Positions 31,818-34,403 of a DNA stretch of 64,000 bases are shown piece after piece. How positions within the stretch are numbered: position 1 is the stretch's first letter; each line of letters opens with the position of its first letter. The translations under genes were made by a program, and so were the position numbers. This stretch comes from Aquibacillus kalidii (GTDB lineage Bacteria > Bacillota > Bacilli > Bacillales > Amphibacillaceae), in contig NZ_JACLZI010000034.1 of the NCBI RefSeq assembly GCF_014280935.1, positions 18,366 through 82,365 of the forward strand, read 5' to 3'. Below the pieces are notes generated by a model. It saw nothing but the letters and a program-made list of their open reading frames with translations, did no database searches and was not told the DNA's origin.

Positions 31818-33953
31818 TTAAAATTGTTTACTCTTTACCCTTAATAAACGAAGACTATTCAACGTTACCAAAAGGGTTGCACCCATGTCTGCAAAGATTG
31901 CTATAAATAGAGTAAGCCAACCAGGTAGAACTAAGAGTAAAGCCACTAATTTAATGGCTAACGAAAATGTAATATTTTGCTTAATAATCGTTAAAGCTTT
32001 ACGACTTAATTGGATCGTGTAAGGCAGCTTACTAAGATCGTCAGACATCAAAGCTATGTCGGCAGTCTCTAATGCTGTATCTGTTCCAGCCCCACCCATT
32101 GCTACACCTACTGTAGAAGCAGCCAGTGCTGGCGCATCGTTAACACCATCACCTATCATCGCAACACTTTGATGATTACTTCTTAACTTTTTAATGAAGT
32201 TTAGCTTATCCTCAGGTAGCAAGTCTGCTTTAACATCGGAAACACCTACCAGTTTCCCAATCTTATCTGCAGTCCTCTGATTATCACCAGTCAACATTAC
32301 AGTTGAGATTCCTAATTGATTTAACTGAGCAACTACTTTCTTAGAATTTGACCTAATTTCATCAGCTACAGCAATTAAGGAGAGTATTTCCCTTTCTGTA
32401 CCTAAAACCATAACGGTTTTTCCTTCATTTTGTAATACTGTAATTTTATCATTAATTGATTGTTCCATGTTTTCATGTAACTCATCAAATAGATTTGGAC
32501 TTCCAACATAAAATAGTTCATTATTTACTTTCGCTTTTACACCCTTACCAGTAATCGATTGAAACTCATCAACCAAAACACTATTAAAGTCTAATTCAAT
32601 TTGGTCTGCTTTTCGTAAAATAGCTGAAGCTAGAGGGTGTTGTGATCCTTTTTCAATTGCAGCTGTAATACATAGTAGTTCTCTTTCATCCCTAGCAAAT
32701 GTTACGAGATCCGTTACAGTTGGTATCCCTTTCGTTAATGTTCCAGTTTTATCAAAAGCGATCGCTTTTAATGCTCCAGCTTCTTCTAAATGAATTCCAC
32801 CCTTAATTAATACACCGTTCTTTGCAGCATTTCCTATAGCTGTTACAACCGCAACTGGAGTTGAAACAACTAGTGCACATGGACAACCAACTACCAATAC
32901 GGATAAACCTTGATAAACCCATAAGTTCCAATCAGCTCCAAACAACGGTGGGATAATTGCTATTAAAGCGGCAATTACAACGATAGCCGGTGTATAATAT
33001 TTAGCAAATTTATCAACAAACGCTTGTGAAGGCGCTCGTTCAGCTTGAGCTTCTTCCACCAAATGAATTATTTTTGAAATAGTAGTATCTTCGACTTTTT
33101 TCGTAACTCTTACTTCAAGTAACCCTTCTTCATTCAATGTTCCTGCAAAAACTTCATCCTCTATTGTTTTGGATACTGGAATACTTTCACCAGTAATAGC
33201 AGCCTGGTTTAAGGTAGAAATACCACGAATAACAACACCATCCATTGCTAACTTTTGTCCTGGTTTTACAATCATAACGTCATCTACTTGTATCTCTTCA
33301 ACCTGAATCAACATTTCTTCGTTCCCACGCCGAATTAAGGCTTCCTTCGGGGCTATATCCATTAAAGATTCAATCGATTGACGAGCTTTATCCATTGAAT
33401 ACCGCTCTAGTGCTTCGCTGATAGCAAATAATATAACGACAGTTGCTCCTTCTCCCCACTCACCAATGATTGCAGCACCTATAATGGCAATCGTCATGAG
33501 TGTGTTCATATCGAATTTCAATCTTGCTAAATTTTTAAACCCTTTTAAAAAAAGTGAATAACCACCAATTAGAATGGAAGTAGCATAACCAACCGTCGGT
33601 ATAAGATGCTCCTCACCAAATTGTTGTCCTAATATCCAACTTGCCAAAAGAATTAAGGCCGAGATATAAACTTTTATATTTTCTCTTTGTTTCCAAAATG
33701 GTTCTGGGGCTTCTTTTTGTTCATTTTCATTACGCAATTTCAAATTTTCAAAAGCACCAGCCTTTTCCAGTGCTTCGATTGTGGTCTCCCCTGTTACTGT
33801 TATTTTGGAAGCTCCAAAATTAACTCTTGCATCTAAAACACCATCCAGGTGTTTCACGTTCTTTTCGAACGTTTTCGCACAGCCAGCTCAGGTGAATCCT
33901 TGAACCCTATAGGTTACTTCCTGCTCTGTTGTGTTAGAGTGTTGTTCAGACAT
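31818..33953 (-). CDS. cadA: Cadmium/zinc-exporting P1B-ATPase CadA, with in-frame TGA at the first Cys of the CxxC metal site
   Basis: Zn/Cd/Pb efflux ATPase. The metal-transport motif CPC (VGCPCALV), phosphorylation site DKTGTLT, TGES and [11 protein letters not shown] are intact, with eight helices. The natural start is ATG 33953, overlapping cadC by eight bases. The reading frame then meets TGA at 33888-33890 (codon 22), exactly where the first Cys of the HMA motif should be (GFT-stop-AGCA), and continues in frame to 31818. Either UGA is read as selenocysteine, the gene has a nonsense mutation, or translation restarts at GTG 33857, giving 679 residues without the metal-binding CxxC. The catalytic core is complete in every case. 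Confidence 0.88.
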
Positions 33954-34329
33954 TGACTTTCACCTCATTCCTATGAGTTAATGCGATCATCATTAACTGT
34001 TTAATGTGATTATCATCTAAAGAGTAAAAGGCCAATTTCCCTTCTTTTCTAAATTTGACAATTCCTTGTTTATGAAGAGTACGTAAATGATGAGAAGCGG
34101 TCGCAACAGTAGATCCGATGATGTTAGCAATGTCACAAACACACAACTCTTCATCCTGACATAATGCAAAGGAAATTTTCGCCCTATTTTCATCAGCAAG
34201 TACTTTAAATAACTGTGCAACACCAGTAATATCTTCTCTTTGTAACTCTGCATGTATTCGTTTTACTTTTGGTTCATCGTAACAGTAAATATCACAAGTA
34301 TCCTTTTGCACCAATTCGTAAACCTCCAC
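33946..34329 (-). CDS. cadC: ArsR/SmtB-family metal-sensing repressor CadC
   Basis: 127 residues with a winged helix (VATASHHLRTLHKQGIVKFR as recognition helix). Cys in the N-terminal arm (DTCDIYC) and the pair ELCVC at the start of the DNA-binding helices form the alpha3N Cd/Pb/Zn site of CadC. It represses cadCA and releases DNA on metal binding. The start overlaps nothing; the stop overlaps cadA by eight bases. Two CadC-type palindromes flank its promoter. Confidence 0.94.
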   Translation of the reverse strand: MEVYELVQKDTCDIYCYDEPKVKRIHAELQREDITGVAQLFKVLADENRAKISFALCQDEELCVCDIANIIGSTVATASHHLRTLHKQGIVKFRKEGKLAFYSLDDNHIKQLMMIALTHRNEVKVNV

Positions 34330-34336
34330 TCATCAT

Positions 34337-34403
34337 TATTCAAATATTCATTTGATTATATTCTAACAATTTCCATCTTGATAATCAAATGAATATTTGA
34401 ATA
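34337..34403 (-). promoter_or_regulatory. cad promoter flanked by twin CadC operators
   Basis: Perfect 23-base inverted repeat (34337-34359 with 34381-34403) separated by 21 bases. Each arm holds a TCAAAT-4-ATTTGA palindrome like the known cad operator. On the minus strand -35 TTGATT (34383-34388) and -10 TAGAAT (34360-34365), spaced 17, sit between and at the edges of the arms, so repressor bound at both arms would cover both promoter boxes. Confidence 0.85.

Follow-up and report, generated by a model that had tools for sequence, protein, structure and literature searches.

Probable selenocysteine at the metal-binding motif of CadA-type efflux ATPases in Bacillales

The window analyzed here, a stretch of 64,000 nucleotides from Aquibacillus kalidii, holds a cadA gene with a TGA where the first cysteine of the CxxC metal-binding motif is expected. 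Two questions are raised by this locus: (i) whether the TGA is decoded as selenocysteine (Sec) or merely interrupts the gene; and (ii) if Sec is inserted, which RNA element in the message directs the insertion. A preliminary description, made from the letters of the window, had raised Sec as a possibility and a nonsense mutation with a downstream restart as the simpler alternative. The Sec machinery of the genome, the conservation of the TGA, and an RNA element with compensatory changes support the former, and from comparison of sequences we consider it very likely that the codon is read as Sec, which would make the product a UxxC efflux ATPase of the Cd/Zn/Pb type.

The cadC-cadA operon and the selenocysteine machinery

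The features of the operon, in coordinates of the window, are:

31818..33953, reverse strand: cadA, read through one TGA; a 711-residue heavy-metal P-type ATPase, predicted to export Cd/Zn/Pb (TIGR01525; Pfam HMA, E1-E2_ATPase and Hydrolase)
33762..33914, reverse strand: HMA metal-binding domain, residues 14-64 (PF00403, 43.2 bits against a cut-off of 24.8, with Sec written as Cys)
33855..33857, reverse strand: GTG, the restart candidate of the preliminary description (GTG in 36/91 distinct TGA genes)
33879..33881, reverse strand: TGT, second motif cysteine, Cys25 (aligned to Cys17 of 2aj0)
33888..33890, reverse strand: in-frame TGA, cadA codon 22, likely Sec, in place of the first CxxC cysteine (from the sequence; aligned to Cys14 of 2aj0)
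33946..34329, reverse strand: cadC, ArsR/SmtB-type metal-sensing repressor, with TGA as its stop and an 8-nt overlap with cadA (NF033788, 90 bits against a cut-off of 55)
33961..33966, reverse strand: GAGGTG, likely ribosome-binding site of ATG 33953 (read from the sequence)
34337..34403, no strand: 23-nt perfect inverted repeat with a 21-nt spacer, upstream of cadC (arms 34337-34359 and 34381-34403; from the sequence)

The cadA frame, which opens at ATG 33953 and closes with a stop ending at 31818, contains the single TGA at codon 22 and no further stop, and GAGGTG sits 7 nt 5′ of the start. The DNA at the site is GGA TTC ACC TGA GCT GGC TGT GCG; in the protein, the site reads YRVQGFT-U-AGC. 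The preliminary description was right about the position of the TGA, the otherwise intact frame and the overlap of the cadA start with cadC (8 nt); its string 'GFT-TGA-AGCA' located the site correctly but mixed protein and DNA letters. When read through, CadA matches the solved CadA domain 2aj0 at 80.9 bits, with Sec22 and Cys25 falling on Cys14 and Cys17. The part after GTG 33857 scores 612.8 bits against TIGR01525 (cut-off 346.25), and a Pfam search found no HMA domain in the product predicted to start at that GTG.

The inverted repeat is the probable operator region of the repressor. In its N-terminal domain, and in its operon with an ArsR-type repressor upstream, the system resembles the CadA/CadC pair of 2aj0/2aj1; unlike that CadA, it has TGA as the first Cys codon, hairpins downstream of it, and an HLDGV-type segment where Cys genes commonly have xLPGV. 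A CadC-like open reading frame, as detected with a crude motif test, lies upstream of 80/90 distinct TGA genes and 44/55 distinct Cys genes.

The Sec genes that the preliminary description had suggested looking for (selA, selB, selC and selD) are accounted for. The genome (4.25 Mb, 66 contigs) has a single tRNA-Sec over the Rfam cut-off, at 66.4 bits and with anticodon TCA (UCA in RNA), and within 6.2 kb on the same contig are selD (419.3 bits), selB (369.2 bits) and selA (565.5 bits), each above its curated cut-off. This selD itself has an in-frame TGA (GG-U-GC), followed by a hairpin, UGUCGCAG-GUU-CUGCGACA. TGA is also an ordinary stop in this genome; it terminates the adjoining cadC, and genome-wide recoding of TGA is rejected on that ground. 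A candidate second Sec ATPase, a 35% paralogue at G000:C37, was likewise rejected: its CxxC motifs are intact, and its TGA lies at the C-terminal end like a normal stop.

Directly after selD, on contig C34 outside the window (L011:9849-12331), are PhnD-like and PhnC-like phosphonate transport genes and a third, ABC permease-like open reading frame. The binding protein scores 207.8 bits against PhnD (cut-off 261.1). Because it also matches the putative selenate-binding family TIGR04553, below cut-off (176.4 bits against 250), these ABC genes may form a selenium uptake system.

Tandem hairpins after the TGA

Two hairpins follow the TGA:

33856..33872, reverse strand: hairpin 1 of the putative SECIS, ACGUUC GAAAA GAACGU, loop 21 nt past the UGA (folding and alignment)
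33837..33853, reverse strand: hairpin 2 of the putative SECIS, AACACC UGGAU GGUGUU, loop 40 nt past the UGA (folding and alignment)

Hairpin 1 begins 15 nt past the TGA, as had been described, and its foot is overlapped by GTG 33857; hairpin 2, which starts two bases after it, had escaped notice. The 60-nt stretch of this gene folds at -17.8 kcal/mol, more stably than 199 of 200 dinucleotide shuffles (z -3.07). Among 2000 synonymous-codon versions of the stretch, drawn with the gene's own codon usage, one folds as well, and 235 are able to form both stems if G-U pairs are permitted. Taken alone, the sequence of this gene is thus weak evidence for an element, and the case rests on the alignment.

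Across 61 distinct TGA sequences of the main type, the two helices occupy columns 19-24/30-35 and 38-43/49-54. Sliding one side by 1-3 columns lowers pairing from 96.4% of the 732 cells to 32-48%. Double changes occur in 13 cells, a total that none of 500 shuffles reaches (shuffled mean 1.7); the pairs with a double change number three, which 50 of the 500 shuffles reach. Some of the compensations leave the encoded amino acids on both sides unchanged (ACG/AAC to ACA/AAT, e.g., in L106 and L126). In the 42 Cys sequences, 61.9% of cells are paired, more than in the slid versions (39-49%), and no pairing measure stands out from shuffles. RNAalifold recovers both helices from the TGA sequences but does not find them in the Cys sequences, and at least five of six pairs in each helix are present in all 86 main-type TGA genes versus 4 of 55 Cys genes.

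When third positions are compared between 66 main-type and 47 Cys genes, the TGA genes are the less variable at 10 of the 12 codons +6 to +17; upstream of the TGA, and again from codon +18, they are mostly the more variable. The free third position within the element belongs to codon +11, which lies between the helices. UGGAU, the hairpin 2 loop, hardly varies: the third position of codon +14 is G in 66/66 main-type genes. The encoded segment is HLDGV, HLEGV or RLDGV in 84/86 main-type TGA genes; of the 55 Cys genes, 5 have HLDGV or HLEGV and at least 26 have xLPGV. In hairpin 1, the first two loop bases, G and A, are just as fixed among Cys genes, and so may reflect only the Glu codon. Since UGGAU is nearly fixed together with altered amino acids, and the G and A of hairpin 1 are fixed in Cys genes too, hairpin 2 is more likely than hairpin 1 to be the SelB dock, as judged from these patterns of conservation.

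The fit to the published bacterial SECIS (bSECIS) model is divided between the hairpins. According to the Fig. 2 legend of PMC13188914, the model calls for a stem of 4-16 bp, a loop of 3-9 nt and a G in the first two loop positions, with 16-37 nt from the UGA to the apical loop and a free energy of at most -7.5 kcal/mol (PMC13188914). Stem, loop and G are within the limits for both hairpin 1 (6 bp, GAAAA) and hairpin 2 (6-8 bp, UGGAU). Hairpin 1, at 21 nt, is correctly spaced, but its -6.2 kcal/mol misses the energy limit; the rough fit claimed for it in the preliminary description thus stands for spacing and loop only, and hairpin 1 alone was rejected as a standard SECIS. Hairpin 2 is 3 nt too far, at 40 nt, and in extended form falls inside the energy limit (-8.8 kcal/mol). 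The SECIS check suggested earlier has yielded conserved hairpins, neither of which alone fits the whole model. Some bacterial SECIS elements do not conform to the standard model (reviewed in PMC13188914).

A single uninterrupted hairpin within all limits occurs in 7/86 main-type genes, 4/5 genes of a second type (type II) and 1/55 Cys genes. The type II TGA genes (L146, L149, L151, L153 and L187), all divergent, are without hairpin 2 and have one stem, with a GUU loop 17 nt past the UGA; folded as 60-nt stretches, four of them gain no stability over their shuffles (z -0.29 to 0.64). With standard bSECIS elements, here those of type II cadA and the resident selD, main-type cadA shares a stem-loop directly after the UGA and a G in the first two loop positions; it differs in having two tandem hairpins, one too weak and the other 3 nt too far. 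Type II would represent a second solution to Sec at the same cadA codon, or a separate origin of it.

An RNA model built from the 61 TGA sequences was run on 397 genomes with strict filters, and gave matches at E <= 0.01 in 156 genomes. Thirty matches were fetched, of which 21 had TGA and 9 Cys. None of the matches listed at 43 bits or more lay outside cadA when coordinates were compared by eye, so that among these stronger matches listed the tandem-hairpin element looks specific to cadA.

TGA, cysteine codons and selB among relatives

In total, 160 cadA loci were read: this gene, 40 named loci, 29 from a search of the order, 60 fetched loci (54 picked for a reported TGA and 6 without one) and 30 from the RNA-model matches. 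At the motif codon, 98 have TGA, 53 TGT and 9 TGC, a TGA share that is not a population frequency because many loci were fetched for a reported TGA. Distinct genes number 91 with TGA and 55 with Cys, counts that drop identical sequences only, some named and G-handle loci being from the same species. The preliminary description had proposed aligning CadA homologues, and had named a lack of Sec machinery, or cysteine in every close relative, as grounds for abandoning Sec; the machinery is complete, and TGA recurs in the 98 loci, which also excludes sequencing error. In the scan of named genomes, 15 of 40 relatives have TGA at the exact codon and 25 have TGT or TGC. The order search found CadA at E <= 1e-220 in 220 of 397 genomes, and the TGA genes with group codes span 39 genus codes and 21 family codes. 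At the protein level, 1695 plasmid records match CadA. Three loci are irregular: L161 is cut off by a contig edge, and a frame shift or mis-assembly is the apparent cause in L162 (a stop after 479 further residues) and L167 (249 residues to a second TGA). Bacillus sp. V59.32b / G294 (L036/L082, L100, L051/L188) apparently has three copies of cadA, two with TGA and one with Cys, the latter carrying two consecutive metal-binding motifs.

In the 38 genomes holding the named loci, selB is present in 13/15 with TGA versus 3/23 with Cys, and the presence of tRNA-Sec is consistent with that of selB in the 18 named genomes tested. In the order sample (130 genomes among the matches listed), the figures are 58 of 59 TGA genomes versus 24 of 71 others (Fisher p 3e-16), in a table based on at least 150 CadA matches listed and counting as non-TGA one genome, G067, that later proved to have a TGA copy. 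With later finds, selB is in 77 of 80 TGA-cadA genomes of this sample, the three without it being G241 (tRNA-Sec present; a 480-contig draft), G208 and G423. After correction for descent the association is not significant (sign test, median p 0.25), in a test with only six contrasts on well-supported branches of the cadA tree, where selB changed the same way in 3.1 and the opposite way in 0.4 on average.

Neither selB nor tRNA-Sec was found over cut-off in the TGA-cadA genomes G007, G014, G208 and G423. Their cadA genes (L037, L044, L127 and L165, respectively) have intact hairpins all the same, and may be recent transfers or reflect recent losses of the machinery; as left-over or transferred genes, they could not be decoded as Sec there.

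The reverse situation, hairpins without TGA, is found in 4 of the 55 distinct Cys genes (L033, L096, L155 and L186), the first three in genomes with selB and the last in one without. Judged by the retained hairpins, these look like recent Sec-to-Cys changes. In prokaryotes such changes are described as rare and documented mainly for FdhA and SelD (PMC13188914), and the four genes look like further cases.

Readings of the TGA and their implications

Under the favored reading, Sec would be supplied to the cadA UGA by tRNA-Sec(UCA), SelA, SelB and SelD. The tandem hairpins would act as the SECIS and recruit SelB with its Sec-tRNA; hairpin 2 would be the dock, and hairpin 1 probably a folded spacer that brings the dock nearer the ribosome. 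Binding of metal by CadC would release the operon. In the pump, the Sec22 selenolate and the Cys25 thiolate would together bind a soft metal ion, and the N-terminal metal-binding domain would feed or regulate transport. A lack of selenium would end translation after residue 21 and would thereby make the pump depend on selenium.

That last step is the core of the rival that survives best, although we consider it unlikely: Sec is inserted, but its role is mainly regulatory, tying synthesis of the pump to selenium, and as a ligand it is no better than Cys. The TGA is early, at codon 22, and failed insertion would therefore block the entire pump. Sec and Cys also interchange on the cadA tree as if either works. 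A FastTree analysis of 143 cadA bodies, leaving out the TGA and the 60 residues after it (and L161 and L167 as too short), requires at least 13 changes between TGA and Cys, 6 of them forced by starred branches. Against a mainly regulatory role, the codon lies on the metal-binding cysteine in all 98 TGA loci, as expected if chemistry decides the place. In the gene studied here, the body falls among Cys genes (with three of them at support 92), whereas over the first 60 aligned residues identity is 72-75% with four Sec genes and 58-68% with six Cys genes. These figures hint at a possible mosaic, with a Sec N-terminus on a Cys body.

The nonsense mutation proposed earlier would stop translation at codon 22, with a restart at GTG 33857 and a pump without the metal-binding motif. 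The GTG is 11 codons past the TGA and opens a frame of 679 residues; the metal-binding domain of such pumps can be dispensable; and this may even be the situation in the four TGA-cadA genomes where selB and tRNA-Sec were not found. As a general account, however, it does not hold up, and we regard it as very improbable. The same TGA is present in 91 distinct genes across 39 genus codes, codon +11 is GTG in only 36 of those 91, and the GTG overlaps the end of hairpin 1. No TAA or TAG was found at the motif codon among the 160 loci. Moreover, pN/pS over codons -9 to -1 is 0.29 in TGA genes and 0.27 in Cys genes, as expected if translation of these codons yields the same domain in both; purifying selection thus acts on the residues that precede the TGA. 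A near-cognate or suppressor tRNA that inserts some other amino acid, with hairpins that only slow the ribosome, would also explain selection on both sides of the TGA, but this is just as improbable, because the 62 other loci always have Cys (TGT/TGC) as the alternative codon, tRNA-Sec, selA, selB and selD are all present in the genome, and TGA ends the neighboring cadC.

With Sec as the preferred reading, the gene fits a known family. The UxxC cation-transporting ATPase (COG2217 / TIGR01525, example ABB15669.1) is listed as a predicted selenoprotein family (PMC2398784, PMC5029168, PMC9312934, PMC13188914), and its features are present here: a TIGR01525 match, TGA at the first Cys with Cys homologues, and the Sec machinery. 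The likeness, a heavy-metal P-type ATPase with Sec at the first CxxC position, is to the family as described in those papers; unlike the present genes, the descriptions there name no Bacillales member, CadC operon or tandem-hairpin element, although the 25 organisms covered by PMC5029168 may include Bacillales. The last of the four sources calls for work on the exact part played in metal detoxification. A role of Sec in metal resistance or as a metal ligand has also been proposed for SaoB/SaoC, a putative mercuric transport protein and the SO_0444 Cu/Zn efflux protein (PMC13188914); these selenoproteins are of other protein families than CadA. A 2006 count gave three selenoproteins of three families for Bacillales (PMC1794560), and the main text of a 2025 prediction paper (PMC12013277) mentions neither Bacillus nor ATPase. 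Among the papers listed in literature searches, titles and abstract openings contained no Sec-containing Bacillales CadA or tandem-hairpin SECIS. The large Bacillales set of CadC-CadA genes with Sec, the tandem-hairpin element, and the repeated Cys/Sec switching with relic hairpins are apparently new.

A bolder proposal, on which we are evenly divided, is that the tandem hairpins constitute a new class of bSECIS, with hairpin 1 as spacer and hairpin 2 as dock, that reshaped the protein it lies in (HLDGV for xLPGV); that its loss leaves fossil hairpins in Cys genes; and that the pump has toggled between selenium and sulfur many times, tying cadmium defence to the supply of selenium.

Finally, we note what the cadA genes offer. 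The tandem hairpins offer a sequence-defined, putative case of a bacterial SECIS outside the standard model. Gene calling with TGA as a stop would presumably start such cadA genes downstream, so that the metal-binding motif would be missing from the predicted proteins. Among selenoproteins whose function is known, most are redox enzymes (PMC2398784); Sec at codon 22 of CadA, if true, puts selenium into the metal-binding site of a pump. The cadA genes form a large natural set of Sec/Cys pairs in a predicted metal-binding site, and because both forms occur in close relatives, the effect of Sec on soft-metal affinity, selectivity and transport is directly testable.
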